From the NCBI RefSeq assembly GCF_007995085.1, contig NZ_VOQS01000005.1, positions 1,736,001 to 1,800,000 on the forward strand: a DNA stretch of 64,000 bases. Reading direction: 5' to 3'. Shown here in pieces: positions 26,277 through 48,774 of the stretch. Below the pieces are notes generated by a model. The model ran no database searches, had not been told where the DNA came from, and saw only the letters and a list, made by a program, of their open reading frames with translations. Source of the DNA: Paraburkholderia azotifigens (lineage in GTDB: Bacteria > Pseudomonadota > Gammaproteobacteria > Burkholderiales > Burkholderiaceae). The position numbers and the translations under genes are program-made. Every line of letters begins with the position of its first letter. Positions within the stretch are counted from its first letter, which is position 1.

Positions 26277-26292
26277 TACCCACCCCGAGGTA
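26277..26292. promoter_or_regulatory. NarL-like 7-2-7 box upstream of APC permease
   Basis: TACCCACCCCGAGGTA: heptamer TACCCAC, two bases, then an inverted TACCTCG heptamer. The arrangement matches the 7-2-7 organisation of NarL-type response regulator sites (TACYNMT-like half-sites). Related elements occur at 38457 and 48760. It lies about 110 bp before the permease start. Confidence 0.5.
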
Positions 26293-26400
26293 TGGTGAGC
26301 CGGCGCTTGCGCGTTGCACCATGAAATCATGCCTCGTTCTTCAATATCGACAGATCACGGCCGCGGCGCGTCGCCGGGCACGTGATCGAGGAGACGTAAA

Positions 26401-28044
26401 TTGAGTGCAACCGAAGAGATTCACCGTCTGGAGGGACTGGCCGACGACGGCGTGCGGTCGACCCTCAAACGCTCGCTGACATGGAAAGACGCATTCTGGG
26501 TGGCGAGCGGTTCGCCCGCCTTCGTGCTCTTCACGTTGGGCGCGATTGCCGCAACGGTCGGCCAGCCCGCCTGGATCATCTGGATCGCGTCCATTTCCAT
26601 TGGCTTTATCCAGTGCTTCACGTATGCCGAAATCTCCGGCCTTTTCCCTCACAAATCGGGCGGCGCGTCGATTTATGGCGCCATTGCGTGGGTCCGGTAT
26701 TCGAAGTTTCTTGCGCCCGTGTCGGTATGGTGCAACTGGTTCGCGTGGTCACCCGTGCTGGCGCTCGGCACGGGCCTCGGCGCAAGCTACATTCTCTCCA
26801 CGCTGTTTCCCGCCGATGCCGCCATCAACACGTGGTCGTTCACACTCCTGAAACTCGACTTCATCAAGAACGGCCTGAGCCTGCGCATCAACTCGACGTT
26901 CATCCTGGGCGCGTCCCTGCTGCTGCTGACATTCTTCGTCCAGCACCACGGCGCCGAGCGTGCCGCGAAGCTGCAGAAGTACATGGGCATCATTGCATTG
27001 ATTCCGCTGAGCATCTTCGCCCTCGAACCCTTGCTCACGGGCTCCGTCCATATGAGCAACTGGTTTCCCCTGCTGCCGCTCGCGCACGACGCCAAAGGCA
27101 ACGTGGTCCCCGGAACATGGAATGCAGCCGGCTGGACGCTGATGATGGGCGGACTCTTCGTCGCGGGATGGTCGACCTTCGGATTCGAAACGGCCGTGTG
27201 CTACACGCGTGAATTCAAGAATCCGAAAACGGATACCTTCAAGGCGATCTTCTACTCAGGCTTGCTGTGCCTCGCGGTGTACATCCTCGTGCCGCTGTCG
27301 TTCCAGGGTGCGATGGGACTCAAAGGGCTGCTCACCCCCGAGATCTACGACGGCACGGGGGTTGCGGCCGCGATGGCGCGGATCATCGGCGGCGGCGCGG
27401 CGATCTTCTATCTGATCGTCGTGATGCTCGTCTTCACCTTGCTGCTGTCGGTGATGACCTCGATGATGGGTTCGTCCCGAACGCTGTATCAGGCGTCCGT
27501 CGACGGCTGGCTGCCGCGCTACCTGTCGCACGTGAACGAGCACGGCGCGCCGACCCGCGCGATGTGGACCGACCTCTGCTTCAACCTGATCCTGCTGATG
27601 ATGTCGGATAACGTCGCGGTGCTCGCGATGTCCAACGTCTGCTATTTCGCGTTCGTGTTCCTGAACCTTCAGGCGGGCTGGATTCACCGGCTCGATCGTC
27701 CGACCTGGGCGCGTCCGTTCAAATGCCCGAACTGGCTGCTGGCGCTCGGCGCGCTGTGCGGCTTCATCGATCTGGCGTGCATCGGCGCAGGCGCGGACAT
27801 CTGGGGACCGGGAACCTTGCGCAACGGACTCGTGGCGATTGCGCTGATCATCCCCGTCTTCATCTACCGGCACTACGTGCAGGACAAAGGCCGCTTCCCC
27901 GACGCCATGCTCGACGACCTGGAACTTCGCCCGGATAACGGCACGACGCGCCGCCGCGCTGCTGGCTGGCTTCCCTATCTGACACTGGTGGCGACCGTGC
28001 TCGTGGTCTGGCTGTCCCATCACTTCGCCGTGTTTCCGGCGTGA
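26401..28044 (+). CDS. APC-family permease, methylamine-locus type 1
   Basis: Large APC transporter of 547 residues with about 12-14 membrane segments. The TM1 region is FWVASGSPAFVLFTLGAIAATVGQPAWIIW. The conserved blocks IQCFTYAEISGLFPHKSGGASIYGAIAWVRY and LAPVSVWCNWFAWSPVLALGTGLGASYIL follow, and the C-terminal part has SSRTLYQASVDGWLPRYLSHVNEHGAPTRAMWTDL. It is closely paralogous to the permease at 34226. The start is TTG with GAGGAG a few bases upstream. It follows the GcvT-like gene by 159 bp, with a NarL-like box between them. Likely imports a methylated amine or quaternary ammonium compound. Confidence 0.8.
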   Translation: MSATEEIHRLEGLADDGVRSTLKRSLTWKDAFWVASGSPAFVLFTLGAIAATVGQPAWIIWIASISIGFIQCFTYAEISGLFPHKSGGASIYGAIAWVRYSKFLAPVSVWCNWFAWSPVLALGTGLGASYILSTLFPADAAINTWSFTLLKLDFIKNGLSLRINSTFILGASLLLLTFFVQHHGAERAAKLQKYMGIIALIPLSIFALEPLLTGSVHMSNWFPLLPLAHDAKGNVVPGTWNAAGWTLMMGGLFVAGWSTFGFETAVCYTREFKNPKTDTFKAIFYSGLLCLAVYILVPLSFQGAMGLKGLLTPEIYDGTGVAAAMARIIGGGAAIFYLIVVMLVFTLLLSVMTSMMGSSRTLYQASVDGWLPRYLSHVNEHGAPTRAMWTDLCFNLILLMMSDNVAVLAMSNVCYFAFVFLNLQAGWIHRLDRPTWARPFKCPNWLLALGALCGFIDLACIGAGADIWGPGTLRNGLVAIALIIPVFIYRHYVQDKGRFPDAMLDDLELRPDNGTTRRRAAGWLPYLTLVATVLVVWLSHHFAVFPA

Positions 28045-28086
28045 CGGATGCCTTCCCACATCACGCCCGCGCAAGGAGGCTCGCAA

Positions 28087-28575
28087 GTGGACAGAACCGC
28101 ATATCTCGCCAGCATCAAGGCGGCCTACGAAGGCGAGCTATATGGCGAGGCCTGGTTCGCCGCCATGGCACGCGAAGCGCAGGCGCCCGACCGTCAGCGC
28201 AAGCTCGCCGCGATGGCGCGGCTCGAAGCGCAGACGGCCATGCGCATGACGCCGCTGGTGAAGCGTCTCGGCATCACGGGCATCGACGAAACGGCGCAGC
28301 GTGCAAAGGGCATCCGGCTCGCGCAGCAGCACATCGGGCAGTCGTGGCCCGTGTTTATCGCGTGGTTCATCGACGAGATCGGCCGGTTCGTGACGCTTTA
28401 CGACGACCTGGCGCGCAGCAGTGCCCCTGAAGACGCGGCGATACTGGCCGAACTCGCCCGCCACGAACGGGCGTTGCTCGAGTTCGCCCGCCTCGAAGCG
28501 CAGGGCATGCCGCATCGCTCGCTCGAGCCGGTGCTTGCGCTGCTCGACACGCGCAGCAGCATCGGCGCGTCCTGA
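28087..28575 (+). CDS. Ferritin-like four-helix protein
   Basis: All-helical protein of 162 residues with carboxylate motifs in ferritin-like positions: YEGELYGEAWFAAMAREAQ, ARLEAQTAMRM, WPVFIAWFIDEIGRFVTLYDDLA and ELARHERALLEFARLEAQGM. The pattern of Glu and a late ExxxH-like pair suggests a rubrerythrin/ferritin-like fold that could carry a diiron site, but no strict ExxH pairs were confirmed. GGAGG lies 7 bp before the GTG at 28087. It follows the APC permease by 42 bp and is probably in the same operon. Role unknown. Confidence 0.55.
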   Translation: MDRTAYLASIKAAYEGELYGEAWFAAMAREAQAPDRQRKLAAMARLEAQTAMRMTPLVKRLGITGIDETAQRAKGIRLAQQHIGQSWPVFIAWFIDEIGRFVTLYDDLARSSAPEDAAILAELARHERALLEFARLEAQGMPHRSLEPVLALLDTRSSIGAS

Positions 28576-28583
28576 AGCGGCGC

Positions 28584-30452
28584 TCAGGCGCCGCTTGCCG
28601 CTTCCCAACCGGATGCCGCCAGCACATGGTCGAGTACGTTCTTCGGATCGCTTTTGCCATGACCGATCGACGCGCAGCCGATGCGCGTCGGCACGCTGAA
28701 CTCATGCCCTTCGATACGAACGGGCGCTTCGAGCAAACCGTGCAGGTTGTCCTGAAGCTCGCCGAGCACGGCGTCCGGATTCGCCGCCGCACGCTGCGCA
28801 AGGCTCTGCGCGTCGTCGCACCACGCGAGCGCATCGGCGCTGAAATCGACGACCATCACCACGAACACATGCGGGTCCAGCAGCGCCGCGCAGTTGAGCT
28901 GCCCCTGCGTCGCTTCGAGGCGCCTGCCGAGGTCGATCATCACCCGGTCGGCGTAGTCCTGTCCGAAGCGCGCCGCGACGTGCTCGAGTTCGCCGACGTT
29001 GATTGCGAAGATCGCGCACGGCAGCGCCGTCCGCGCCGAGATGGCCGCCGAAAACTCCATCCGGTCGATAAACATCGACGCACTCGCAAGTCCCGTCGAA
29101 TGTTCGAACGTCAGCCGCCGGCGGGCGTTTTCTTCAACCATCTGCCTGCGCGCCACTTCCACGATGAAGCCTTCGAGGCCCATCAACTCGTCGCGCGCCG
29201 AATAGACACCGCAGCCCTGATCCCATACCCACTTGGTCTGCCCCGAGCGGTCCACGATCCGATAGGTCAGTTCGTAGGGCTCGCGCGCGACCACCCGCGC
29301 CTGGACCTCGTTCCAGACGAACTCACGATCGTCGGGATGGATCAGCGAACGGAACGCGAGCCGGCTTTCGTCGATCAGTTCGAACGCCTCGTAGCCCGTC
29401 AGATCGAAGCATCCTTCGCTGACGAATTCCATCGACCAGTCGCGGTTGTTCTGCCCTCGATAGATCATCGCCCGCAGGTTGGACAACAGCGTGCGCAGAC
29501 TGCGCCGGCTTGCGCGCAGCGCTTCCTCGTTGCGGCGGCGATTGGAGATGTCCGTCGCGAGACCGACCGCGCCGTCCAGCACACCCTCGTCGTCCGTCAC
29601 GGCGTGAATGCGCAATTCGACGTGAGCCGTCGTGTTGTCGGCACGGATGAGACGGGCTTCCGTCACCAGTTCGCTCAGGTGCCCGTCGAGCAGCGCCTTC
29701 ACGCGCGCATTCAGCGTCTCGGCGTCTTCGGGGTGAAAGAACGAAGTAAACGGCTTGAGTTCGGCGTCGCTGCCGACCGCGCGCATGAGGCTGCGCCATG
29801 CAGGATTCGAAAAGATCAGACGTAACTCGCGGTCGACGCGAAACAGCGCCTGCGGCAATTGCAGCACGGCGTCCTTGCAGTGCTGCAGCAGTTGAAGCTC
29901 GCTGCGCTGCGCGTCGACGCTCGTATGAGGCGCGGGAAATTGCAGCAGCGTCATGCGCGAGCCGCGCGCGCGCAACGCGGTGACGGGGTGCAGGCGAAAG
30001 CTGCCGTCGCCATAGGCAATGCGCAGCGACCCCGAGGTGCGCTCCTCGCCGTCGCGCGATTGCGTGAGCAACGCAGTCAGATCGAGCAACGATTGCGGAT
30101 GCACGAGATTGCTGAACGGCATTCCGACGATCTCATCGGCGTAGGACTCCCAACGCGCGTGCTTGAGAAACGCGCTATTGACGAACACCAGCGCATCGTT
30201 ATCGAGCAACACGGCGGGCGTGGAAAGATTGGCGGCGAACGCGCCCAGTTCCGGCGACTCGGCCGCGCGAACGATGCGTGGCGCCGTGCGGCGCGCGCCG
30301 TATGCCATGCTGAGCAGAAACGTCGCAAGGCACCCTGCCAGCCCGATCGAGACATACAATAGATCATTGTTGTCAGGGCTGTATCCGAGTCTGGGAATCA
30401 CCAGTGCAGCTACCGCAGCCAGCAACACCGTGGCGAACAGATAAACCGACAT
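28584..30452 (-). CDS. Membrane PAS protein with degenerate GGDEF domain
   Basis: Sensor protein of 622 residues. Two N-terminal TM segments (about 3-18 and 31-50) are followed by three PAS-like domains (about 65-175, 190-310, 320-435). The C-terminal region (about 440-620) has the shape of a GGDEF domain: LTFEHSTGLASASMFIDRMEF in place of DxLTGLxNR, then CAIFAINVGELEHVAARFGQDYADRVMIDLGRRLEA. The signature GG(D/E)EF itself is replaced by LLDPHVFVV. Cyclic-di-GMP synthesis is therefore not expected; a sensory or binding role is more likely. It is divergent from the sensor kinase at 30519 with only 66 bp between the starts. Confidence 0.78.
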   Translation of the reverse strand: MSVYLFATVLLAAVAALVIPRLGYSPDNNDLLYVSIGLAGCLATFLLSMAYGARRTAPRIVRAAESPELGAFAANLSTPAVLLDNDALVFVNSAFLKHARWESYADEIVGMPFSNLVHPQSLLDLTALLTQSRDGEERTSGSLRIAYGDGSFRLHPVTALRARGSRMTLLQFPAPHTSVDAQRSELQLLQHCKDAVLQLPQALFRVDRELRLIFSNPAWRSLMRAVGSDAELKPFTSFFHPEDAETLNARVKALLDGHLSELVTEARLIRADNTTAHVELRIHAVTDDEGVLDGAVGLATDISNRRRNEEALRASRRSLRTLLSNLRAMIYRGQNNRDWSMEFVSEGCFDLTGYEAFELIDESRLAFRSLIHPDDREFVWNEVQARVVAREPYELTYRIVDRSGQTKWVWDQGCGVYSARDELMGLEGFIVEVARRQMVEENARRRLTFEHSTGLASASMFIDRMEFSAAISARTALPCAIFAINVGELEHVAARFGQDYADRVMIDLGRRLEATQGQLNCAALLDPHVFVVMVVDFSADALAWCDDAQSLAQRAAANPDAVLGELQDNLHGLLEAPVRIEGHEFSVPTRIGCASIGHGKSDPKNVLDHVLAASGWEAASGA

Positions 30453-30518
30453 GACGTTCTCGCTTCAAAAAACAGGATCACAGATCGCCAACGCCGCGCG
30501 AACTCACACGCCCCGCTC

Positions 30519-32336
30519 ATGAACATCGACCAGTCTGCGCGCATTCATCGCTATCCGCTGTACGCGAAAGTCTGTTTGCTGCTTGCCTGTCTCGTCGCAC
30601 TGATCACCGTGCTTTATCTCGGCGCGTTCATGCAGACAAGCGGAAGCGAAGGCTTCCGGCAGACTCAGTTTTCCCTCGACGAAGCCATGCGGCTGGAGCG
30701 CAAGGCGGCGAGCGCGCAACAGGATTCGCCCGACACCGCGCGTGCCTTGAGGGAACTGGCCGACTCGCTTGTTCGCAACGATACGCTACTGACGGACTGG
30801 AGGCAACGCGGTGCGCCGACGCCCGAAATCGGCAACGCGCTGGCGGCCGTGCGCGCGCCTGCTGCGCCGGAGCATGCGGGCAAACCGGATGCGAAGCTCG
30901 CCGCGCTCGACGCGTTGCGCTCGCAGGTCGCTTACCAGCGCGACGTGCACGCCGCAGTGCTCGGCCTGTTGCAAGCGTGCACCGTGTGTCTGCTGATCTT
31001 CGGCATCGTGTCGCTCGCATGGGGCGCGCGGCGCACACTCGTCGCGCGGCCGCGCGCGGCACTGCAGGCGCTCGTCGAGACGGGGCTGAGCGTGCCGCAA
31101 GGCCGCGACGAAATCGATCGCCTGCTGAAGATCCAGGCCCAGCTTGCCGTGCAGCTGCGCACGGAGCAGGACGAGTCGGCGCGGCTGAAGCGCATCGTCG
31201 AAGACTATATTGCCTTCGCCGACCAGTCGCTCGAACTGCTGCATCACATCTGCGCACAGCTCGCTGAAGAAGAGCCGTCCGGCCGCACGCTCGAAGCGCT
31301 GCTGCAACGCCTCGTCGGCGTGCTGCGCGCGCGGCGTATCGCGCTGGTGGTCACGGAATCGACGGCGCAGCTGCTCGACATCGACCCCGTCGTTTCGCCC
31401 AATGGCGACGTGCCGTCCATCGTGCGCGCCCGCGTGACGAACGAGCTGATGACGCTTGCCGGCACGCATACGTTCGCGCCGCTCGACGACGGCCAGGCGC
31501 CGCCGCCCGTGCTGGCCGCTCCCGTGCGCGTGCCGCTCGCGAGCTACGGCGTGCTGATCGCGGAAGGCGAACCGGATTCGCGCTTCGAGCTGCGCCACCT
31601 GTATCTGATGGAGACCATCGCGAGCGTGCTGGCGCATGCAATCTCCAACCTGAGCCGCGACGTGCGCGACCGGCGCATGGCGCTGTTCGAAGAGCGCAAT
31701 GCCATCGCGCGCGAGCTGCACGACTCGCTCGCGCAATCGCTGTCGTACATGAAGATCCAGCTGGCCCGCCTGCAAGCCGTGCTGCCGCCCGAACTCTCGC
31801 AGACGGACATCGCCGAAATTGCGCAGGGCATTCGCGAAGGAATCGACAGCGCGTACCGGCAGCTGCGCGAACTTCTCACCACGTTCCGTTCGCCGATGCA
31901 CGCACATGGCCTCGCGTCCACGCTCGAAGAACTCGCCGAAGAATTCGGCTCGCGCAGCGAAGTGCAGATTACGATCGATAACCGGGTGCCGCGCATGCGT
32001 CTGTCCGTCAACGAAGAAATGCACGTTGCGCAGATCGTGCGCGAGGCGCTGACCAACGTTCTCCGCCACGCGCGAGCGACGACGGCCCAGGTGCAACTGA
32101 TGTCGGACGGCCACACGATGACCGTCTCGATCGACGACGACGGCCGCGGCATCAATCGCACCGAAGGCGACGAGCATCACTACGGTCTTTCGATCATGCG
32201 CGAGCGTGCCCGCAGCCTCGGCGGACGGCTCGAAGTGAAACCGGCCGAACGTGGCTCGCGCGTCATCCTGACCTTCGTTCCCGCCGCGCTCGCCGCGTAC
32301 AAGGCGCGCGCCACCAGCGGGGCAGGCGTTCGCTAG
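30519..32336 (+). CDS. NarX/NarQ-type sensor histidine kinase
   Basis: Membrane sensor kinase of 605 residues. TM1 is at about 16-36 and TM2 at about 147-168, with a periplasmic domain of about 110 residues between them. A coiled linker and a GAF-like region (about 240-375) follow. The HisKA_3 dimerisation helix is RNAIARELHDSLAQSLSYMKIQLARL with phosphoacceptor His401, and the ATPase domain contains REALTNVLRHARAT and IDDDGRGI. These kinases pair with LuxR/NarL-type response regulators. None is adjacent; the only one in the window is at 48008, beyond the methylamine genes. Its position beside amine uptake and oxidation genes suggests that it senses methylated amines or C1 status. Confidence 0.85.
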   Translation: MNIDQSARIHRYPLYAKVCLLLACLVALITVLYLGAFMQTSGSEGFRQTQFSLDEAMRLERKAASAQQDSPDTARALRELADSLVRNDTLLTDWRQRGAPTPEIGNALAAVRAPAAPEHAGKPDAKLAALDALRSQVAYQRDVHAAVLGLLQACTVCLLIFGIVSLAWGARRTLVARPRAALQALVETGLSVPQGRDEIDRLLKIQAQLAVQLRTEQDESARLKRIVEDYIAFADQSLELLHHICAQLAEEEPSGRTLEALLQRLVGVLRARRIALVVTESTAQLLDIDPVVSPNGDVPSIVRARVTNELMTLAGTHTFAPLDDGQAPPPVLAAPVRVPLASYGVLIAEGEPDSRFELRHLYLMETIASVLAHAISNLSRDVRDRRMALFEERNAIARELHDSLAQSLSYMKIQLARLQAVLPPELSQTDIAEIAQGIREGIDSAYRQLRELLTTFRSPMHAHGLASTLEELAEEFGSRSEVQITIDNRVPRMRLSVNEEMHVAQIVREALTNVLRHARATTAQVQLMSDGHTMTVSIDDDGRGINRTEGDEHHYGLSIMRERARSLGGRLEVKPAERGSRVILTFVPAALAAYKARATSGAGVR

Positions 32337-33469: not shown

Positions 33470-33604
33470 CGAAGTCTCGTGGTGTTTGCTGGCAGTGATG
33501 TGACGGGACATCGCACAGACCGTCGCGATGCGCGCGTACTCACCGCGCTGCGGGAGCAGCGCGATGAGCGTCTCGATCAGACTCGTGGGAAGAGCGGCAG
33601 CGGA

Positions 33605-34213
33605 CTACAGATAGGGCTGGGAAATGGCGGGCAGTTCGCCGGCTACTTCGGCATCCGCCTGCACGCCCATGAACGCGGCGAGGCGCCGCGAAAAATGATC
33701 GCGCACGAAGAGTTGCAGTCCGCATCCATTACACGTCACGACGTTCCGTGTCACGGCTTCGTTGAACGCGTGACAGTGAATGCAGTAGACGCGGCGCTGC
33801 AGCGTGCCGCTGCGCTGCAACTGGACGGCTTCCGCCGCCAGCGCGTGGTGCTCCGCGATGCGCCGGATCGACCAGATAAACGGCTCGCTGCCGAGCACAT
33901 AGATGCGCAGGCCGATGGTCGCAACGGTGGGATCGCGCAGCGCTTCGTCGAGTGCCGCAAACAGCGCGGCGTCATCGGCGAACGTGCGCTCTCCCGCCTC
34001 GTGGAATGTGACGCCCGCGGCATGCCGCGTGGGATCCTGCACTTCCCACACTTCCATCGGCGAGAGCCCGGCGAGCGCAAGGCTTGCGCGGACGCAATCC
34101 TCGGCGCTCGCGCCGTTCGTGATGAACAAGTGACGCGTGCCGTGCAGATCGGGTGCCAGCCGCACGTATTCGGGCCGGCTCTTGTTGGTCGACATCATGG
34201 TCGTGTCATCCAT
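33605..34213 (-). CDS. dmmA: Dimethylamine monooxygenase subunit DmmA-like
   Basis: Protein of 202 residues. The N-terminal part has RHLFITNGASAEDCVRASLALAG, and the C-terminal region carries a cysteine-rich module (VYCIHCHAFNEAVTRNVVTCNGCGLQLFVRDHFSRRLAAFMGVQ; two CxxC pairs) characteristic of the DmmA-like family. It would be a small accessory subunit of the dimethylamine monooxygenase that demethylates dimethylamine to methylamine and formaldehyde. It lies 12 bp after an APC permease that separates it from the DUF3445 and reductase subunit genes upstream. All four genes are on the minus strand and are likely one operon. Confidence 0.75.
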   Translation of the reverse strand: MDDTTMMSTNKSRPEYVRLAPDLHGTRHLFITNGASAEDCVRASLALAGLSPMEVWEVQDPTRHAAGVTFHEAGERTFADDAALFAALDEALRDPTVATIGLRIYVLGSEPFIWSIRRIAEHHALAAEAVQLQRSGTLQRRVYCIHCHAFNEAVTRNVVTCNGCGLQLFVRDHFSRRLAAFMGVQADAEVAGELPAISQPYL

Positions 34214-34225
34214 TCGAGTCGAGGT

Positions 34226-35905
34226 TCAGTAGATGGCGAGGCTATGCGTGACCGCCACCACCGCGATACCCGCCGCCACGGTCACATAAGGCAGGATCCC
34301 TGCGCGCCGCGCCACGCTTTGCGAGCCGACGAGCTGCATGTCCTCCTTCATCGCATCGGGGAAATGCCCCTTGTCGGTCACGTAGTGGCGGAACAGGAAC
34401 ACGGGCAGGATCAGCGCCGCGAAGCACAGGCCCGAGATCAGCGTGCCGGAGCCCCAGATATCCGCGCCCATGCCGAGCAGCGCGAGATTGACGAACGAAA
34501 ACAGCGTGCCGAGCGCGAGCAGCCAGTTCGGCGCGCGGAACGGCCGGCTCCAGTCCGGGCGGTCCAGACGGTGAATCCACGCGGAATTCAGGTTCAGGAA
34601 GTTGAAGATGATGTAGCCGACATTCGACATCGCCAGCACGAACACGTAGTCCGACATCAGCAGCAACACCAGGTTGAAGCACAGGTCCGTCCACATCGCG
34701 CGGGTCGGTGCGCCGTGTTCGTTGACATGCGACAGGTACTTCGGCAGCCAGCCGTCGACGGACGCCTGGTAGAGCGTCCGCGACGAACCCGCCATCGACG
34801 TCATGATGGCCAGCACGAGCGCCAGCACCAGCATCACGATCAGCACGCGCTCGACCAGCAGGCCGCCGTGAATCATCGGCGCCATGGCTTTCGCGACGCC
34901 CATGCCGCTGTAGATGTCCGGCGACAGCATGCCGTCGTACACGGCGGGCGTGACGATGTTGCCTGCGGCATCCTTGACGGCGGGCGTGACCATGTGGCCG
35001 AGACCCAGCACGCCCTGGAACGCCAGCGGCACGATCGTGAACACGAAGATGCACAGAAGCCCGGAATACAGAATGGCCTTGAACGTGTCGACCTTCGGAT
35101 CGCGGAATTCACGCGTGTAGCAGACGGCCGTTTCGAAACCATACGTCGACCACGCCGCGATGAACAGGCCGCCCGCCATCAGCGTGATACCTGCGCGATC
35201 CCACGTGCCGTCGACGATCTGCCCGGCGCTGTCCTTCGCGAACGGCACGAGCGGAAACAGGTTGTGCAACGGCAGATCGCCGCTGAAAAGCGGCACCGTG
35301 CCGACGAGAATCAGCGGCACGAGTGCGGCCACGCCGAGTATCGTCTGGATGCGCGCCGCATTCAGAATGCCGCGATGCTGAATGGCAAATGTGATCAGCA
35401 ACACGACCGCGCCGAGTATGAACGTCGAGTTGATCCGCAGGCTCAGGCCCGAGCGGATCCAGTCGAGGCTCACCAGCGTGACCTGCCATGTGTTGATCGC
35501 GGCGTCAGCGGGGAACAGCACGGACAGAATGTAGCCCGCCGCGAGCCCCGATCCGATCGCCAGCACGGGCGACCACGCGAACCAGTTGCACCAGACCGAC
35601 AGCGGCGCGAACAGCTTCGAATAACGGACCCATGCGATCGCGCCATAGACGGACGCGCCACCCGACTTGTGAGGAAAGAGACCGGCGATCTCGGCATACG
35701 AGAACGACTGGATGAAGCCGAGGCCGATCGAGATGATCCACACCGCCCACGACAGCTTGCCGACCGTCGCCGCGATCGAGCCGATCGAAAAGAGCACCAG
35801 CGCAGGCACGCCGCTCGCCACCCAGAATGCACCCGTCCAGCTGATCTTTCGATGCAAGGTACCGTCCGCTGCCTCGGCAACGTAGTCTTCGGAAACCGCA
35901 CTCAT
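34226..35905 (-). CDS. APC-family permease, methylamine-locus type 2
   Basis: APC transporter of 559 residues, closely paralogous to the permease at 26401. Both share FWVASGxPAxVLF, GLFPHKSGGASxYGAIAWVRYSK, APxSVWCNWFAWSPVLA, SSRTLYQASVDGWLPKYLSHVNEHGAPTRAMWTDLCFN and WSRPFRAPNWLLALGTL. It has about 12-14 membrane segments. A larger insertion is seen around residues 330-375 (HMVTPAVKDAAGNIVTPAVYDGML). AAGGA precedes the ATG at 35905. Sitting inside the dimethylamine monooxygenase gene set, it is the best candidate for a dimethylamine or trimethylamine importer. Confidence 0.82.
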   Translation of the reverse strand: MSAVSEDYVAEAADGTLHRKISWTGAFWVASGVPALVLFSIGSIAATVGKLSWAVWIISIGLGFIQSFSYAEIAGLFPHKSGGASVYGAIAWVRYSKLFAPLSVWCNWFAWSPVLAIGSGLAAGYILSVLFPADAAINTWQVTLVSLDWIRSGLSLRINSTFILGAVVLLITFAIQHRGILNAARIQTILGVAALVPLILVGTVPLFSGDLPLHNLFPLVPFAKDSAGQIVDGTWDRAGITLMAGGLFIAAWSTYGFETAVCYTREFRDPKVDTFKAILYSGLLCIFVFTIVPLAFQGVLGLGHMVTPAVKDAAGNIVTPAVYDGMLSPDIYSGMGVAKAMAPMIHGGLLVERVLIVMLVLALVLAIMTSMAGSSRTLYQASVDGWLPKYLSHVNEHGAPTRAMWTDLCFNLVLLLMSDYVFVLAMSNVGYIIFNFLNLNSAWIHRLDRPDWSRPFRAPNWLLALGTLFSFVNLALLGMGADIWGSGTLISGLCFAALILPVFLFRHYVTDKGHFPDAMKEDMQLVGSQSVARRAGILPYVTVAAGIAVVAVTHSLAIY

Positions 35906-36068
35906 AACTGTCGTCCTTTTTTCCGGTGGAATACCGATTGTGGGAATCGTTCCGCGTGAAGTACCCGCCTCGCGCCAGGATGGCGCGAACGCGGGAAGGA
36001 AACACTGCAACAGCTTCTAGTTGTCAACGGCGTAGATTGTTAAAGGCGTATGCCCCGCTTCTGCCCCT

Positions 36069-38120: not shown

Positions 38121-38623
38121 GCCGTCGACACCTCCATGAGTCTCAGCTGTGGGCGTGAGTGACAGGTGCTGCCTGTCCTTCGCGTCGTTGCATTCATGGG
38201 AGTAGCATCGGCCTGCAAAAAACGCTTATCAATGATTCAGTGTGGGTAGTCCCCAGGCAGTAATGGTTGGCGCGCGCAACGCCGCCCGCTGCGTCATCCG
38301 GCTCTTCCCGAAAGCCTCGCCCGTGTCGGCGCGAACCGCGCCGGCGTTGGCGCTGCCGCCTCTTTTACCGACGCCTTTCGGCAAACGTACAGTTCCGCTT
38401 CGCCACCGGACGCGTTCGATTTCTTCTTGCGACGGCGCAGCCGGAGTACCCGCGCCTACCCACCGGGAGGTAGTGCCACCGGGCGATTGTGGGGCGAAAT
38501 TGAACGGCAGAGACTTGCGCTCATCGACGCTGGTGCATCCAGTCCGTCCGATATCGCCGCCTTCGCAACACCAGACGCGTGCAGTCATTGCCCAGCAAAG
38601 GGTCCTACTTTCGGGAAAACATC
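38121..38623. other. Divergent regulatory gap between the DMA and TMA operons
   Basis: The 503-bp gap separates the dimethylamine monooxygenase operon (minus) from the GcvT-TMADH operon (plus). No gene was recognised in it; open frames there are not family-like. It contains a NarL-like 7-2-7 box at 38457, a flanking TACCCGC heptamer, and a minus-strand TACCCAC heptamer at 38242-38248 nearer the dimethylamine operon. No good -24/-12 sigma-54 element was found, despite the sigma-54 regulator downstream. Confidence 0.6.
38447..38472. promoter_or_regulatory. NarL-like 7-2-7 box in the DMA/TMA divergent promoter
   Basis: TACCCACCGGGAGGTA at 38457-38472: heptamer TACCCAC, two bases and inverted TACCTCC. 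An extra heptamer TACCCGC starts 10 bp upstream at 38447, one helical turn away. Same architecture as the 26277 box and close to the 48760 element. Its place between the dimethylamine and trimethylamine operons makes it the most informative copy. Confidence 0.6.
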
Positions 38624-39736: not shown

Positions 39737-39887
39737 CCCGCGGTCCTCACCGCATTGCCCATGATACGGCGGCGCGCGCAACGCCACGGCGCGCGTGCCG
39801 TCACCACGAGAAAGACAAAGGCAGAGCGAAGCACAACAACTGTCCAGGGTTCGGCGGTCCACGACGGCCCCGCCTTTGTCCCCGTAG

Positions 39888-42104
<2,217 letters not shown>

Positions 42105-42266
42105 CCCGGCCGAAGCAACGGAAGCGGGCAAACGGTCCGCTTCCTCCGCCCTTCTCCGCAGTCAGGACGCCACGCGCATCGCGCCGTTGGGATCGCCGCT
42201 CACCCGGTGATCCGTGCAGCCGGTGCCGCGGCGGGGGCCCCTTTTACTCATTCAACGGACGAGCCC

Positions 42267-44429
42267 ATGTCGAGCGCAGCGAACTTCGACCCCGTCAACG
42301 TCACCCGGATCCTCTTCGAGGGCTTCCCCACGTTCGCGATCGTACTGTTCTATCTGGCAGGCGTCGGCGCGATGGCCGCGTTCGCGTGGGGTGTCTATAT
42401 TCAGGTGCGCAAGTACCAGCGCGGCAAGCCCGTGGCGGGCCCGATCGATCTGCGCAAGCGCATCGGCGCGATGGTGCAGGTCGTGCTGAGCCATCGCACG
42501 ATCGCGCGCCGCGATCCGGCGGCAGGCCGCGCGCACCGCTTCATTTTCTACGGCTTCGCGGTGCTGTTTCTCGGCACGGCGACCGTCACCGTCGACTACG
42601 ACATCACCGCGCGCTTTCTCGGCTTCCACTTCTGGAACGGCAACTTCTATCTGTTCTTCAAGCTGGCGATGAATCTCGCCGGCCTGTCGCTGGTGGGCGG
42701 CCTGATCTACATGATGGTCCGGCGCGGCTGGATCAAACCGCCTAAGCTCGATTACGCGCGCCCCGACCGCAAACCGGGCGACCCCGACTACGACCGCAGC
42801 GGCTATCGGCGCGAAGACTGGGCCTTTCTCTGGTCGCTCGTGCTGATCGGCATCACCGGTTTCGTGCTGAGCGGATTGCGCCTCGTGTGGCTGCAGGACC
42901 GCGCCGTGGTCTGGGATACGCGCTGGTGGTCGCCCGTCGCCGCGCTGCTCGCCGAAATCATGCGCGGCGCGGGGCTCAGTGCATCGGCCGCGTACGTGCT
43001 GCGCACGGGCCTGTGGTGGTTTCACGGCGCGCTCGCGCTGACGTTCATCGCGCTGATTCCGTACACGAAGGTCAAGCACATCTTCACGGCGAGCGGCTCG
43101 CTGCTGATGCGCGATCCCCTCGCCGCGCAGCGTCTGCCGAAAGTCGAACCCGACGCGCCGCGTGCCGGCTACAAGACGATCACCGACTTCACGTGGAAAC
43201 ACCTGCTCAATCTCGACGCCTGCACCAAGTGCGGCCGCTGCCATGAGGCGTGCCCCGCCCGCGCAACCGGTGCGCCGCTGTCGCCGCGCGACGTGATCCT
43301 GTCGCTGCGCGAATTCGCCAATGAGGCGCTGGAGAAGAACACGCTGCCCGAAGAGGTCAAGCTCGACGTGCACGGCAAGGATATCGGCCAGGTCTTCATG
43401 GAAACGGTCTGGTCGTGCCGCACCTGCATGGCGTGCGTGGAAATTTGCCCCGTCGCCGTCGAGCACGTGCCCATCATCGTCCAGCTGCGCCGCAATCTCG
43501 TCGAAGACGGACAGATGGAGCCGCAGGTGCAGAAGACCTTGCAGGCCATTCACAAGAACGGCAACTCGTTCAACGAATCGAAGCGCAAACGCGCCGCGTG
43601 GACCAAGTCGCTGCCCTTCCCGATCAAGGATGCGCGCAAGGAGCCCGTCGATCTGCTGTGGTTCGTCGGCGACTATGCATCGTTCGATCCGCGCAACCAG
43701 CGCGTCACGCAGGCTTTCGCCACACTGCTGCACGATACGGAGGTGGATTTCGGCCTGCTGTTCGAAGGCGAAGCGAACGCGGGCAACGATGTGCGGCGCG
43801 TCGGCGAAGAAGGCCTGTATGAAGTGCTCGCGACGCAGAACATCGCGACGCTCGGCTCGTCGCAATTCCGCCGCATCGTCACCACCGACCCGCACTCGTA
43901 CAACACGATCCGCAACGAGTACCCCGACTTCGGCGGCCACTTCGAGATCGAGCACTACACGAGCCTCGTCGCGCGCATGCTCGCCGAGGGCCGGCTGCGC
44001 CCGAAGCGCAAGCTCGGCTATCGCGTGACCTTCCACGATCCGTGTCACCTTGGACGCTTCAACAAGGGCTATGACGCGCCGCGCCAGATCATCGAAGCGC
44101 TCGGCTGCGAACTCGTCGACATGAAGCGCTCGCGCGACAACTCGTTCTGCTGCGGCGCGGGCGGCGGCCGCATCTGGATGAACGATCCCGTCGGCCAGGA
44201 GAAGCCGTCGCAGAACCGCATGAAGGAGGCGGCCAGCATCGAAGGTCTGGAAGTGTTCGTCGTCTGCTGTCCGAAAGACCTGACGATGTTCGAAGACGCG
44301 CTGAAGACGAGTGGCTACGAGGGACGCTTCGTCGTGCGCGAGCTGATCGAGCTGATCGCCGAGAGCCTCGTCGACGTCGATGGCGACGCGCCGCCCGCGG
44401 ACGATGTGCGTGTGACGGCCGACGCCTGA
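42267..44429 (+). CDS. DgcB-like membrane Fe-S oxidoreductase
   Basis: Integral membrane protein of 720 residues. The N-terminal domain has about five or six TM segments resembling the NarI/HdrE haem-b region (FAIVLFYLAGVGAMAAFAWGVYIQ, AHRFIFYGFAVLFLGTATVTVDYD, WSLVLIGITGFVLSGLRLV). Two 4Fe-4S motifs follow (CTKCGRCHEACPA; CRTCMACVEICPV), then two CCG domains (FHDPCHLGRFN...FCCGAGGGRIW). This is the layout of DgcB and related ETF-linked oxidoreductases. It likely takes electrons from the EtfAB pair encoded downstream and passes them to quinone, doing the job of ETF-ubiquinone oxidoreductase for TMADH. The ATG at 42267 gives the shortest membrane-domain leader. Confidence 0.82.
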   Translation: MSSAANFDPVNVTRILFEGFPTFAIVLFYLAGVGAMAAFAWGVYIQVRKYQRGKPVAGPIDLRKRIGAMVQVVLSHRTIARRDPAAGRAHRFIFYGFAVLFLGTATVTVDYDITARFLGFHFWNGNFYLFFKLAMNLAGLSLVGGLIYMMVRRGWIKPPKLDYARPDRKPGDPDYDRSGYRREDWAFLWSLVLIGITGFVLSGLRLVWLQDRAVVWDTRWWSPVAALLAEIMRGAGLSASAAYVLRTGLWWFHGALALTFIALIPYTKVKHIFTASGSLLMRDPLAAQRLPKVEPDAPRAGYKTITDFTWKHLLNLDACTKCGRCHEACPARATGAPLSPRDVILSLREFANEALEKNTLPEEVKLDVHGKDIGQVFMETVWSCRTCMACVEICPVAVEHVPIIVQLRRNLVEDGQMEPQVQKTLQAIHKNGNSFNESKRKRAAWTKSLPFPIKDARKEPVDLLWFVGDYASFDPRNQRVTQAFATLLHDTEVDFGLLFEGEANAGNDVRRVGEEGLYEVLATQNIATLGSSQFRRIVTTDPHSYNTIRNEYPDFGGHFEIEHYTSLVARMLAEGRLRPKRKLGYRVTFHDPCHLGRFNKGYDAPRQIIEALGCELVDMKRSRDNSFCCGAGGGRIWMNDPVGQEKPSQNRMKEAASIEGLEVFVVCCPKDLTMFEDALKTSGYEGRFVVRELIELIAESLVDVDGDAPPADDVRVTADA

Positions 44430-44461
44430 ACGACGCCATCCATAGCAGACCCAAAGCCGCC

Positions 44462-46042
44462 ATGACAACGCCCGCCCGTCACGCCGACAGCCAGCCGCGC
44501 GCCGCCGATGCCGCACGCGCGGGCGCGCGGCTGCGCCGTCACTGGCGGGAACTGATGCGGCTCGCCCTCGACGCGCCCGACGCACTCGCGTGCGCGATGC
44601 TCTATCCGCACGCGGGCGGCGCGGAACGCAAACGGCTCGAAGCGCGCATGTTCAACGCGCGCAGCGAGCGGCTCGCGCTCGCGGCCTGTCCGCATACGCC
44701 GTCTGCCGTGCTTGGGCGGCTCTGCACACTCGCCGCCGCCGACGCGGACGGCACGCTCGCAACGCGTCTCGCCCGCAATGCCGCCACGCCCGCCGACGGC
44801 CTGCAAACGCTTGCCGTGTCGCTTGCCGTGTCGCTCGCTGCGTCACTCGAAGCGGCGACGCCGCAGCAGAACGCGCAACGCCTCGCGCAACTGATCGCGC
44901 GACACCCGCTTGCGCCGCCTGCATTGCTGGAGAAGATCGCAGCGCACACCGACAGCATCGAAACCTTGCGCTCGCTATGCGAAAACGTCGGCGTGCAGGC
45001 CGATTTGCTGGCGCAGCTGGCGGGCCGCGGCATCGCGCCATTGCAACGGCTGCTCGCGATTCACTTCGCAACCGACGCCCGCACGCTGCACCAGCTGTGG
45101 CAGAGCACGCGCGAAAGCGCCGTGCGCGCTCAGGTGCTGCGTCATCGCGCCTGCCCGAACGAACTGTTGCGCACGGTGCCCGCCTCGGGCTCGGAGCGGC
45201 GCAGCCTCGCGTCGAACGTGCGCACGGCGGGCGAGATCCTGACCGCGCTCGCACGCGACGACGATGCCGTCGTGCGCCGCGCGGCCGCCACCAATCCGGC
45301 GACACCCGCAGGCGCGCTGATCCTGCTGTGCTTCGACGCGGACACGCTCGTCAGGCGCGCGGTCGCCGTGCGCGACGATCTTCCCCTCAAGGTCGTCGAG
45401 TGGCTCGCCGGAGACAGCGACGTGTGGGTGCGCAGCAGCCTCGCGCGCAACCGCGCCTGCCCGCGCAGCTGGCTCGACCGGCTCGCGCGCGACCGCGAGG
45501 CCGACGTGCGCCGCTCCGTCACCCGCCACCCGGCTTGTCCCATGCCGCTCGTCACACTGCTTGCGGGCGATGAGGTCGCGTGGGTCCGCGCGGGCGTCGC
45601 GTTGCGCGACGAACTGCCCGGCCCCGTGCTGCACCGGCTGTTGCAGGACACCGATATCGACGTGCTGGCGGGCGTCGCGCGTCATCGCGGCACGCCGCAG
45701 GCGACGCTCGCACGCCTCGCGCAGCATCCGTCGCCCGATGTGCGGCGTGCCGTCATCCTCAACCGTCATGCGCAGCGCCGCGTGCTGCTGCCGTTGCGCG
45801 ACGAGCCGTATCCGCTGCACCGCGTGCTGGTGTTCATGCATCCGGGGCTGACCGACTCGGACCGCTGGCGCATGCGCTTCGAGCCGGACATGGAAGCGCG
45901 CGCCCGCATGGTCGGCCATCTCGCCGGCACGCTCGCCGCCGCGCGCGAGCGGGAGCGCCACGAACAGCGCGCCGCTGACGGCGCGGCATCACCTGAAGCG
46001 GACACACATCAACTGACCACAACAGTGGAGGAGGCAGGATGA
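44462..46042 (+). CDS. Leucine-rich-repeat-variant (LRV)/HEAT-like repeat protein
   Basis: Alanine/arginine-rich helical repeat protein of 526 residues. From about residue 60 onward it consists of units of about 24 residues of the form LAxxxxxxVRRAVAxNPxxP: e.g. DDAVVRRAAATNPATP, ADTLVRRAVAVRDDLP, SDVWVRSSLARNRACP, READVRRSVTRHPACP and PSPDVRRAVILNRHA. This matches LRV/HEAT-type solenoids. The family includes an Azotobacter LRV protein with an Fe-S cluster; the N-terminal Cys pattern here does not make one obvious. It is embedded between the Fe-S oxidoreductase and etfB, and its stop overlaps the etfB start (ATGA). Function unknown; assembly or scaffolding is an inference. Confidence 0.6.
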   Translation: MTTPARHADSQPRAADAARAGARLRRHWRELMRLALDAPDALACAMLYPHAGGAERKRLEARMFNARSERLALAACPHTPSAVLGRLCTLAAADADGTLATRLARNAATPADGLQTLAVSLAVSLAASLEAATPQQNAQRLAQLIARHPLAPPALLEKIAAHTDSIETLRSLCENVGVQADLLAQLAGRGIAPLQRLLAIHFATDARTLHQLWQSTRESAVRAQVLRHRACPNELLRTVPASGSERRSLASNVRTAGEILTALARDDDAVVRRAAATNPATPAGALILLCFDADTLVRRAVAVRDDLPLKVVEWLAGDSDVWVRSSLARNRACPRSWLDRLARDREADVRRSVTRHPACPMPLVTLLAGDEVAWVRAGVALRDELPGPVLHRLLQDTDIDVLAGVARHRGTPQATLARLAQHPSPDVRRAVILNRHAQRRVLLPLRDEPYPLHRVLVFMHPGLTDSDRWRMRFEPDMEARARMVGHLAGTLAAARERERHEQRAADGAASPEADTHQLTTTVEEAG

Positions 46043-46842
46043 AGATACTCGTCACCATCAAGCAGGTCACGTCGCTCGACGAGGATTTCGAGCTGCGCGA
46101 CGACGATCGCGATGTCGAAGCGGACTTTCATGTCTTCGACCTCAACGAATGGGATCACTATGCACTCGAAGAAGCGCTGCGCCTGAAGGAAGGCGCGAAC
46201 GGCGACGGCATCGAAGTGGTTGTCGTCACCGTCGGCCCCGAGCGCGCCGACGAAGAATTGCGCAAGTGCCTCGCCAAAGGCGCCGACCGCGCGATCCGCA
46301 TCTGGAGCGACGAACTGGAGGACGCCGACCCGGTCGGCGTCGCGCGCGCGCTTGCCGCGCTTGCGCGCCGCGAAGCGCCCGACATGATCTTCGCCGGCGT
46401 GCAGGCGTCCGACCATGCGTACGGCGCCACGGGGATGGCGCTCGCGGGTCTGCTCGACTGGCCGCACGCGGCTGTCGTCGCGGGCCTCGAATACGCGCCC
46501 GGCGCGGGCACGGCCAGCGCGCGCCGCGAACTGGAAGGCGGCGCCTATGCGAACGTCACCGTGCAATGCCCCGCCGTGCTCACGCTGCAACTGGGCATCA
46601 ACACGCCGCGTTACGCGTCGCTGCGCGGCATCAAGCAGGCCGCGTCGCGGCCCATCGAGGCCGTGACGCCTGACGCACTCGGCCTGCCCGCGGAGCAAAC
46701 GGGTGCGCGCGGATCGCTGTCGCGCATCCGGCGCGTCTATGTGCCCGAACTCGGACGCGCGCAGATGATCGACGGCACGCCCGCCGAACAGGCCGCCCGC
46801 CTCGCGGGCATCATCAAGGAACTTCGGGGAGAAGCGCAATGA
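46039..46842 (+). CDS. etfB: Electron transfer flavoprotein subunit beta
   Basis: EtfB of 267 residues. Landmarks are MKILVTIKQVTSLDEDFELRDD, DLNEWDHYALEEALRLKEG, DMIFAGVQASDHAYGATGMALAGLLDWPHAAVV and the C-terminal LRGIKQAASRPIE. The beta subunit binds AMP and forms the docking surface for the electron donor. It is translationally coupled to the LRV gene upstream and to etfA downstream (both ATGA overlaps). Being in the TMADH operon, it is probably a dedicated ETF for trimethylamine dehydrogenase. Confidence 0.93.
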   Translation: MKILVTIKQVTSLDEDFELRDDDRDVEADFHVFDLNEWDHYALEEALRLKEGANGDGIEVVVVTVGPERADEELRKCLAKGADRAIRIWSDELEDADPVGVARALAALARREAPDMIFAGVQASDHAYGATGMALAGLLDWPHAAVVAGLEYAPGAGTASARRELEGGAYANVTVQCPAVLTLQLGINTPRYASLRGIKQAASRPIEAVTPDALGLPAEQTGARGSLSRIRRVYVPELGRAQMIDGTPAEQAARLAGIIKELRGEAQ

Positions 46843-47789
46843 GCGGGATTCTGGTTATTGCTGAACATCGTCAGGGGCAACTGCGTCCCGTGAGCGCCGA
46901 ACTGATCGGCGCCGCGCGCGAAGCGGGCGGCGAACGCGTGACGGTCGCGGTGCTGGGCGCAACGCCCGCCGCATTCGTCGATGCCCTCAAGCTGGCGGGT
47001 GTCGACGAAATCGTCACGGTGCAGACCGCGAGCGATGCGTTCGACCCCGACACCTACCAGGCGGTCGCGCAGGCGCTGATCGAAGCACGCCAGCCTTCGC
47101 TCGTGCTGCTGCCGCATACGATCGACACGCTTGGTTACGCCGCGCCGCTCGCGGTCAAGGGCAACTACGGCTTCACCACCGACGCGTTCGGGCTCGCGCG
47201 CGACGGCGAAGGCTGGATCGCCACGCGCTCCGGCTATGGGCAAAAGGTCAACATGGAGATCGAGTTTCCCGAGCGCGCGACCGTCGTCGTCACCGTGCGG
47301 CCGGGCGCGTTCAAGGCGCCCGACGCGGCCGGCACGCCCGACATCAGCGCCTTCGACGCCCCCGCCGTCACGCCGCGCAGCGCTCACGTGTCGTTCGAAG
47401 AACCCGCCGCGAGCGGCGACGTCGACATCGTCGGCGCGGACTTCATCATGTCGATCGGGCGCGGCATCGGCGAGGAAACCAATGTCGAGCAGTTCCGCGA
47501 ACTCGCCGGCTCGCTTGGCGCGACGCTCGGCTGCTCGCGTCCCATCGCCGACTCCGGCTGGCTGCCGAAGGCGCATCAGGTCGGCCAGTCCGGCAAGACA
47601 GCAGCCGCCTGCAAGCTGTATATCGCAATGGGTATTTCAGGGTCGGTGCAGCACATGGCGGGCATGAAGCACGTCGAAAACATCATCGCCGTCAATACCG
47701 ATCCCGAAGCGTCGATCTTCTCGATTGCGAAGTACGGCATCGTCGGCGACATCTTCGACATCGCGGAAGAACTGCGCGGCCACTTCTGA
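46839..47789 (+). CDS. etfA: Electron transfer flavoprotein subunit alpha
   Basis: EtfA of 316 residues, the FAD-binding subunit. N-terminal MSGILVIAEHRQGQLRPVSAELIGAARE; the C-terminal FAD domain contains IMSIGRGIGEETNVEQFRELAGSLGATLGCSRPIADSGWLPKAHQVGQSGKTAACKLYIAMGISGSVQHMAGMKHVENIIAVNTDPEASIFSIAKYGIVGD in standard order. It accepts electrons from TMADH and hands them to the DgcB-like membrane protein. Last gene of the operon; a strong terminator follows. Confidence 0.94.
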   Translation: MSGILVIAEHRQGQLRPVSAELIGAAREAGGERVTVAVLGATPAAFVDALKLAGVDEIVTVQTASDAFDPDTYQAVAQALIEARQPSLVLLPHTIDTLGYAAPLAVKGNYGFTTDAFGLARDGEGWIATRSGYGQKVNMEIEFPERATVVVTVRPGAFKAPDAAGTPDISAFDAPAVTPRSAHVSFEEPAASGDVDIVGADFIMSIGRGIGEETNVEQFRELAGSLGATLGCSRPIADSGWLPKAHQVGQSGKTAAACKLYIAMGISGSVQHMAGMKHVENIIAVNTDPEASIFSIAKYGIVGDIFDIAEELRGHF

Positions 47790-47804
47790 GCGGACATCAT
47801 GGAA

Positions 47805-47845
47805 AACCCGGAACGCACGCGCATTCCGGGTTCAAACTATTTTTT
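47805..47845 (+). terminator. Intrinsic terminator after etfA
   Basis: AACCCGGAA (47805-47813) pairs with TTCCGGGTT (47824-47832), a perfect 9-bp stem, followed after seven bases by TTTTTT (47840-47845). It lies 15 bp after the etfA stop and closes the TMADH operon. Confidence 0.8.
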
Positions 47846-48007
47846 CAAATGTGGTTAATTGTTAAACTCAGCGACGCAACACTTCGGCAACAGAAACAAT
47901 AAGCCACCGCTCACAGCTTCACGACATCGCCCTGCGCCGCAAGACGCAGTCAAGCCAGCCGGGCCAACGAAGCCCATTGGTCTGGTCAATGAGTCCAGGA
48001 AGAGCAG

Positions 48008-48655
48008 ATGGTCCCTCACACAGTACTTCTGATCGACGATCACGCGTTGTTTCGCAAGGGCGTCGCGCAACTGATCCAGATGAACCCGGCGTTCGAGGTC
48101 ACGGGCGAGGCGACTTCGGGTCAGGACGGCATCGAAATGGCCGTGCGGCTCAAGCCGGACGTCGTCCTGATCGACCTGAACATGCCGCGCATGAACGGCA
48201 TCGAAACGCTCGAAGGCATGCGCCACGCGGGCGTCGACGCGCGCTTCATCATGTTGACGGTGTCGGACAACGAGCGCGACGTGGTTGCCGCGCTGCGCGC
48301 GGGCGCACACGGCTATCTGCTGAAGGACATGGACCCGGAGGATCTGTGCGTGTCGCTGCAGAAGGCGCTCAAGGGGACGGCCGTGCTGAGCGAATCCGTC
48401 ACGGGCAGTCTGGTTCATGCGCTCTCGGGCGGGCAGCGCATTCCCGCTGCGCAGAACGATCTGACGGCGCGCGAACTCGAGGTGTTCGATTATCTGGTGG
48501 CTGGCCTGTGCAACAAGGCGATCGCCCGCAAGCTCGATATCAGCGTGGGCACGGTCAAGGTGCACGTCAAGCACGTGCTGCGCAAGCTCGATCTCCACTC
48601 GCGTCTCGAAGCCGTGCTGTGGCAGCAGGAACACGGTTCGCGCTCGCATCACTGA
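48008..48655 (+). CDS. NarL/LuxR-type response regulator
   Basis: Two-domain regulator of 215 residues. The receiver domain has the acidic pair DDH at residues 10-12, phosphoacceptor Asp56 in LIDLNMPRMNG, the Thr switch LTVSDNE and Lys in YLLKDMDPEDL. The C-terminal LuxR helix-turn-helix is LTARELEVFDYLVAGLCNKAIARKLDISVGTVKVHVKHVLRKL. No kinase is adjacent; the NarX-like kinase at 30519 is the only candidate partner in the window. FlhSR-type systems, with this pairing, control C1 genes in other methylotrophs. It is the natural candidate to bind the 7-2-7 boxes nearby. Confidence 0.85.
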   Translation: MVPHTVLLIDDHALFRKGVAQLIQMNPAFEVTGEATSGQDGIEMAVRLKPDVVLIDLNMPRMNGIETLEGMRHAGVDARFIMLTVSDNERDVVAALRAGAHGYLLKDMDPEDLCVSLQKALKGTAVLSESVTGSLVHALSGGQRIPAAQNDLTARELEVFDYLVAGLCNKAIARKLDISVGTVKVHVKHVLRKLDLHSRLEAVLWQQEHGSRSHH

Positions 48656-48759
48656 CATTGCGGCGCGCATGCGCCGCTTCCTGCCTTCCTCTTCGGTGCC
48701 GCGCCATGCATGCGGCGGCGTGCTGCTGCGTGCGCGATGCGCTGGCTCTGGTTAACCTC

Positions 48760-48774
48760 TACTCCCGGGAGGTA
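48760..48774. promoter_or_regulatory. NarL-like palindrome upstream of the sigma-54 activator
   Basis: TACTCCCGGGAGGTA: TACTCCC and inverted TACCTCC halves around a single base. It shares GGGAGGTA with the 38457 box, though the spacer is one base shorter than in the other two copies. Lies 108 bp before the start of the sigma-54 activator and 105 bp after the response regulator gene. Confidence 0.5.

Follow-up and report, generated by a model that had tools for sequence, protein, structure and literature searches.

Conserved NarL-type 7-2-7 boxes before methylated-amine genes of Paraburkholderia azotifigens, probable operators of a dedicated two-component system

Introduction

FlhSR of Paracoccus is a two-component system for C1 oxidation genes, and in that respect resembles the system considered here: a set of NarL-type 7-2-7 boxes, together with a NarL-type response regulator, in a methylated-amine locus of Paraburkholderia azotifigens. 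The locus lies in a 64,000-nucleotide stretch of contig NZ_VOQS01000005.1 (hereafter the window); coordinates count from its first letter, and proteins are named by the lower coordinate of their genes. The operators closest in form are those of Escherichia coli NarL. According to excerpts of PMC4549865, the engineered 7-2-7 site used for crystals reads TACCCCTAAAGGGGTA, and the 7-2-7 sites of napF and yeaR lie at -40/-49 and -38/-47, respectively. The methylotroph box, TACCCCTTAGGGAGTA, is nearly identical to that crystal site. As far as those excerpts describe the NarL/NarP operators (narG -89/-89 engineered, napF, yeaR), the present system shares with them the heptamer, its inverted 7-2-7 arrangement, a site near -44 at activated promoters and the recognition helix TVKVHVKH. 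It differs in that the targets are methylated-amine genes, the usual layout has two 7-2-7 sites that overlap, 14 bp apart, and linkage to narG is absent.

The system closest in function is that of the Roseobacters, which control the methylated-amine pathway via AraC-type TmaR and TmoR (PMC13390433, in part). In the portion available for Ruegeria pomeroyi, one regulator coordinates the tmm, tdm, dmm, gmaS-mgs and mgd genes, much as proposed below. Unlike TmaR, regulator 48008 of the window has Response_reg and GerE domains and is not of the AraC type, and the main text of PMC13390433 uses none of the terms two-component, NarL, response regulator and motif. A LuxR-family activator of dimethylformamide genes in Paracoccus aminophilus, cited in the available part of PMC4543880, is judging by its title similar to 48008 in its LuxR-type helix-turn-helix and in serving a related N-methyl compound pathway. 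FlhS is named in an excerpt of PMC3925955. The retrieved parts of PMC3925955, PMC4543880 and PMC5520151 name no NarL-type methylated-amine regulator, and in the open-licence literature, as partially available, we found described neither a NarL-type box for methylated-amine genes nor how the pathway is switched on in methylotrophs with trimethylamine dehydrogenase. The heptamer itself is already known; what is new is the predicted regulon and the staggered double site.

Results and Discussion

Boxes in the methylated-amine locus

Two boxes in the window are 7-2-7 inverted repeats of NarL-type heptamers: TACCCACCCCGAGGTA (26277..26292, + strand), ahead of a gene for an APC protein resembling the trimethylamine N-oxide (TMAO) permease, and TACCCACCGGGAGGTA (38457..38472, +), in the promoter shared by a GcvT-like gene and the trimethylamine dehydrogenase gene (tmd), with its centre at about -57.5. 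The pattern TACCN8GGTA occurs at these two places only, where 0.05 are expected, and none of 100 shuffled windows reached two. Searching for TACCCACCNNGAGGTA with up to two mismatches gave the same two sites (0.09 expected). The third box, TACTCCCGGGAGGTA (48760..48774, +), lies before the gene for a sigma-54 activator and is the sole match to TACYN7RGTA, a 7-1-7 form, in the window. A preliminary description of this DNA had placed all three boxes at these positions and called two of them exact 7-2-7 arrangements, and the pattern searches agree on both points. Its 7-1-7 spacing for the third is true of this genome, but 13 of 13 orthologous gaps hold a 16-bp box; the 15-bp form at 48760 therefore looks like a one-base loss here.

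Recurrence in orthologous promoters, on which the preliminary description had staked its reading, was seen in all or nearly all orthologs for two of the three boxes, and in 3 of 8 for the one at 26277. In 18 aligned tmd promoters of Paraburkholderia and Caballeronia, TACYN8RGTA is present in 17 rows including the window; 16 of the 17 orthologs have it, and the other has a 15-bp form (L122). The 14 aligned sigma-54-activator promoters comprise the 13 orthologs with the 16-bp box, and the window. An additional half-site, TTACCTC/TAACCTC, just 5' of the third box (48739-48760) is found in this genome and in close relatives.

Single heptamers fared unevenly. Of the three that had been listed, TACCCGC at 38447 is present, but what is conserved there is an overlapping half-site on the opposite strand: CGGAGTA as read on the + strand (38442..38448, - strand feature), 8 bp before the tmd box. 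Its core G[GA]AGTA (38443-38448) stands 7-8 bp 5' of the box in all 18 aligned promoters. The heptamer TACCCAC (38242..38248, -), in the promoter of the dimethylamine monooxygenase (dmm) genes, was borne out, with TACC[CT][AC]C at the matching position in 16/16 aligned dmm promoters, accompanied in every one by ATTG and GAT[GT]CT. The heptamer at 35962, upstream of the second APC permease gene, exists as described; in 15 orthologous gaps nothing equivalent recurs at a shared position, and we rejected it as a regulatory site.

Across the whole genome, TACCN8GGTA on its own shows no enrichment, having 22 matches where its reversed pattern has 80; the weight of the argument is therefore borne by where the boxes lie, what follows them and how well they are conserved. 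The bare pattern is also too loose to find a regulon: 13 of 15 fetched places were inside an open reading frame of at least 190 amino acids. For genome searches it was replaced by a composite pattern, the box plus a downstream element, which has one match in this genome.

Boxes in other bacteria

We collected 78 loci around relatives of trimethylamine dehydrogenase, 11 of them from Paraburkholderia or Caballeronia and 67 from other bacteria, and examined the regions 5' of tmd, dmm, GcvT and APC genes, counting gaps between divergent genes from both sides. Outside Paraburkholderia and Caballeronia, TACYN8RGTA occurred 85 times in 57,759 bp, versus 6, 9, 0, 3, 2 and 1 times for six control patterns; inside, it occurred 22 times in 10,619 bp, versus 0, 0, 0, 2, 0 and 0. 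The motif thus extends to other species, with 82 further sites before these genes at 41 outside loci.

The composite pattern gave a similar picture. It was found in 22 of 25 genomes outside the genus with a match to the regulator, a proportion that overstates its frequency because the 25 were picked by hand from 46 such genomes and were mostly box-bearing, several box-less ones having been left out. These held 44 matches, versus none for the reversed pattern; only 2 of 21 regulator-negative genomes had the composite. For 42 of the 44 matches, the contig also bears the dehydrogenase or the regulator, and the remaining two precede genes for DmmA and an amino-acid permease. In 12 stretches around composite matches, the next genes were GcvT, tmd, DmmA, APC permease or folE2; Pfam searches of six identified folE2 in L198 and L200, permeases in L203 and L204, DmmA in L201 and GcvT in L197. 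As a 7-2-7 arrangement, then, the box is conserved before tmd, dmm, GcvT and APC-permease genes and, in some Methylophilaceae, folE2.

The element precedes folE2, which encodes a GTP cyclohydrolase, in three methylotroph genomes (L198 and L200 by Pfam, L202 by the start of the protein). These matches would link folate synthesis to the regulon: FolE2 may supply tetrahydrofolate, the presumed C1 acceptor.

Promoter architecture and a second, proximal site

For analysis of downstream context, we aligned 96 oriented sites by their boxes; bases downstream had played no part in selecting them. Conserved 3' of the aligned boxes is ANCCNTNNTGRGAATTGT, followed by 17 bp and a TAAAAT-like -10 element. 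Once three shifted duplicates were dropped, 82 outside sites and 11 from Paraburkholderia or Caballeronia remained for counts by offset. Outside, TTG lies at offset 14 in 46 sites (10 at the next-best offset), xAxxxT lies at offset 37 in 51 (next-best, 21), and GAGAATTG, scored as at least six of eight positions, lies at offset 9 in 57. Inside, TTG and xAxxxT occupy those offsets in 11/11 sites, and GAGAATTG in 0/11. Sigma-54 promoters behind the boxes were ruled out, since the conserved spacing is sigma-70-like.

Promoters of the window illustrate this layout. At tmd, a -35-like TTGTGG (38487..38492, +) is separated by 17 bp from a -10-like GAGACT (38510..38515, +). At dmm, a -35-like TTGATA (38227..38232, -) is followed after 17 bp by a -10-like GATGCT (38209-38204). 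The sigma-54-activator gene has TTGTCA (48790..48795, +), one base farther from the box than at tmd, and, beyond a 17-bp spacer, AATAAT (48813..48818, +), which is invariant in 14/14 aligned promoters. For the box at 26277, the TTG of a possible -35 is at the standard offset (26307), and a clear -10 was not seen.

The bases between box and -35 resemble another operator. We scanned a box-derived heptamer matrix over 62 offsets (of the 96 rows, 6 were dropped as shifted duplicates or sites without context, and thinning reduced the 79 outside the genus to 63). In the forward direction, judged on the last five positions, the matrix matched best at -2, and in reverse at 7; together the two matches make an exact 7-2-7 site sharing TA with the box. 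Because its mean log-odds is negative apart from the shared bases, we call this proximal site degenerate. Applying the register of sites outside the genus to tmd puts it at 38471..38486 (+), with 2 bp in common with the box. Only the proximal heptamer is retained in dmm promoters. Assuming a start of transcription 7 nt past the -10, which would be near 38522 for tmd and about 38197 (-) for dmm, the two sites would be centred at about -57.5 and -43.5. The proximal element is best read as a second site of the same regulator, with a site for another protein as the possible alternative.

A candidate regulator and its co-occurrence with the boxes

The best candidate regulator for the boxes is the NarL-type response regulator encoded at 48008..48655 (+), as the preliminary description had suggested. 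It combines Response_reg and GerE domains; the window protein scores 267.7 bits against the NCBIfam NarL model (NF007935; cut-off 250); and its recognition-helix run, TVKVHVKH, is that of E. coli NarL. As for NarL, 7-2-7 heptamer operators stand before its presumed targets. Linkage to nitrate respiration genes was not found in this genome, where narG is on C3 and the regulator on C5.

Presence of the regulator family tracks presence of the boxes. Among 144 genomes of the genus, 18 have the regulator (E ≤ 1e-60) and 16 have trimethylamine dehydrogenase; the composite element has 33 matches, in 18 genomes, versus 5 for the reversed pattern. The element is present in 16 of 18 regulator genomes versus 2 of the 126 others, and in 16 of 16 dehydrogenase genomes (Fisher tests, shared ancestry ignored, 3e-17 and 2e-19). 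The discordant genomes are G018 and G143, with the regulator alone, and G076 and G089, with the element alone. In P. ribeironis (L023), the regulator match is in two pieces and the tmd box is still present. In another genome of the genus (G071, L128), a dehydrogenase match is absent and a composite box lies ~350 bp 5' of the regulator.

Outside the genus, any match with E ≤ 1e-35 counted as the regulator, a criterion that takes in some probable nitrate-type homologues (e.g. L079); L016 was scored as positive from its own DNA. By this measure, 46 of 67 genomes are positive, and upstream boxes were found at 36 of 46 of their loci versus 3 of the 21 others (P 1.4e-6). At one of the exceptions, L067, the box precedes a weak GcvT match. 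G209 has a kinase match right at a contig end, and its regulator may be hidden in an assembly gap. By tblastn, the regulator, a kinase and a PAS gene occur together in 41 of the 48 regions around the regulator (L145-L192) from outside the genus.

Weighing the explanations

Taken together, placement, context and conservation indicate that the boxes are in all likelihood real operators, and we consider it quite probable that they serve a two-component system of the NarL family dedicated to methylated amines. Several observations weigh against this reading. The box at 26277 is the least conserved: as regards the APC gene, the predicted recurrence held in 3 of 8 aligned orthologs. Two further species (L125, L127) have a box in that region, but tblastn shows no permease gene there. 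Upstream boxes are lacking at 10 of the 46 loci outside the genus that are regulator-positive, and G182 has a composite element without a regulator or kinase match. One TACYN8RGTA each was also seen at two PAS-less regulator-kinase loci, L146 and L190; the box form can therefore not be called exclusive. The statistics also call for caution, as the P values disregard shared ancestry, many regulator-negative genomes are gammaproteobacterial metagenome-assembled genomes, some of the loci in which the composite patterns were counted had also served to define them, and the 25 genomes were hand-picked. In the proximal site, GAA stands in place of GTA and a conserved T falls inside the spacer (offset 5). 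Transcription starts, finally, are inferred from -10/-35 matches.

Alternatively, the boxes could respond to nitrate, as sites through which an ordinary NarXL system represses or adjusts the methylated-amine genes during nitrate respiration. The operator form is indeed NarL's, 48008 exceeds the NCBIfam NarL cut-off, and this genome has narG. In addition, our tree leaves E. coli NarL and the PAS-less regulators L146, L147 and L190 unseparated from the methylated-amine regulators; it argues against a clean split, and we therefore do not claim a separate origin for the latter. Yet regulators adjacent to narG in three genomes of the genus share 39-43% identity with 48008, differ from it in their recognition helices (TVKIHVRN, TVKIHVQH) and lie across a well-supported branch from it. 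Six narG-locus stretches (~103 kb) contained no TACYN8RGTA, though three of the six also gave no regulator match. In 6 of the 18 composite-bearing genomes of the genus (G061, G076, G086, G089, G109, G134), the best narG match is far under the cut-off. The putative partner kinase points the same way. The protein encoded at 30519..32336 (+) is of the HisKA_3 type, with a GAF domain and two predicted transmembrane helices, and had been described as NarX-type. That is apt for its catalytic half, the NarX model match spanning residues 194-590; the whole protein misses both cut-offs by far, with 228.8 of 553 bits for NarQ and 199.4 of 578 for NarX. Its periplasmic part (residues 37-145) has no Pfam domain at E 0.001, the only hit being a weak one to DUF7433 (E 0.085, residues 67-85). 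Within its own genome, the kinase matches itself and six others, at 28-34% identity and in the catalytic part only. Nitrate control thus seems unlikely to us.

It is also improbable, and we give it slight credence, that the boxes bind another factor, such as the sigma-54 activator (48840) or a regulator whose gene lies outside the locus, with the NarL-like protein a bystander. That activator is part of the locus, and the downstream CC-T--TGRGAATTG element could be a second protein's site. But promoter spacing is sigma-70-like, the half-sites fit the NarL heptamer and the regulator bears NarL's helix; outside the genus, matches to 48840 were found only at L073, L081 and L175 of L016-L093 and L145-L192 (≤ ~10 kb each side). 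Chance, or simple inheritance of promoters without function, is a very remote prospect. Short motifs do recur, and TACCN8GGTA by itself shows no genome-wide enrichment. However, the composite outnumbers its reversed pattern by 44 to 0 in the 25 genomes and by 33 to 5 in the 144, and the box bases are fixed amid otherwise differing promoters of several proteobacterial groups.

If the boxes are operators of the two-component system, the kinase, perhaps aided by the PAS protein, would sense a methylated amine or a C1 product and phosphorylate both 48008 and a paralogue at a second, N-methylglutamate locus. Phosphorylated dimers at about -58 and -44 would then recruit sigma-70 RNA polymerase to otherwise weak promoters. 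Regulator 48008 would also turn on the sigma-54 activator gene, giving a cascade. More broadly, we lean slightly towards the view that the PAS-kinase-NarL-type trio is a general methylated-amine sensor of beta- and gammaproteobacterial methylotrophs and of at least one alphaproteobacterial one (Hyphomicrobium zavarzinii). It would be distinct from Roseobacter TmaR, would act via its own type of promoter, in which two 7-2-7 sites overlap in a staggered arrangement, would reach tetrahydrofolate synthesis through folE2, and would probably be annotated as the nitrate regulator NarL. The outcome is a promoter model that is explicit and conserved, together with a candidate regulator identified by name and a regulon predicted for several groups. 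It also carries a caution: a response regulator that scores as NarL can belong to methylated-amine metabolism.

A second locus with N-methylglutamate genes

About 52 kb downstream of 48008 is the regulator paralogue (78% identical), in a locus with genes for a type III glutamate-ammonia ligase (gmaS-type) and for glutamate-synthase-like and sarcosine-oxidase-like proteins, which we take to be the N-methylglutamate route for monomethylamine. Two boxes are found there, TACCCACGGGGGAGTA (L109:11950) and TACCCACGAGGTGGTA (L109:14580). Downstream of the latter stand TTGCCA and, after a 17-bp spacer, GACACT, and similar sequences occur in relatives; these -35/-10 elements face away from the regulator paralogue, toward no clear gene. 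Adjoining the first box (L109 ~11895-11935) is an inverted repeat, TTTCCTGACAGGAAA, kept in several relatives and perhaps the site of another regulator.

Genes of the locus

The first box precedes a gene for an APC permease (26401..28044, +), a trimethylamine N-oxide permease by NCBIfam (824.8 bits, cut-off 690). Divergent from the kinase gene is that of the membrane-anchored PAS protein (28584..30452, -), the third partner of the PAS-kinase-regulator trio, which may be part of the sensor. It has two N-terminal transmembrane helices and a weak, sub-threshold GGDEF match without the GGDEF signature. Profile matches identify, all on the - strand, a DmmA-like subunit of dimethylamine monooxygenase (33605..34213), a second APC permease (34226..36010), a haem-dependent oxidative N-demethylase subunit (Dmm; 36069..37139) and a Dmm reductase-like subunit with Fer2 and FAD/NAD domains (37155..38120).

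On the + strand, the tmd operon begins with the gene for a GcvT-like C1 transferase (38579..39736), identified by profile match. Trimethylamine dehydrogenase follows (39903..42104), matching the PDB 1djn/2tmd sequence over residues 6-732 (E 0, 1452 bits). By profile matches, genes for an Fe-S protein, an LRV-repeat protein, EtfB and EtfA lie 3' of tmd (42207..47789, +), and the gene behind the third box encodes a GAF-AAA-Fis sigma-54 activator (48840..50915, +). The LRV-repeat protein (44462-46042), between the Fe-S and etf genes, recurs in many methylotroph loci.

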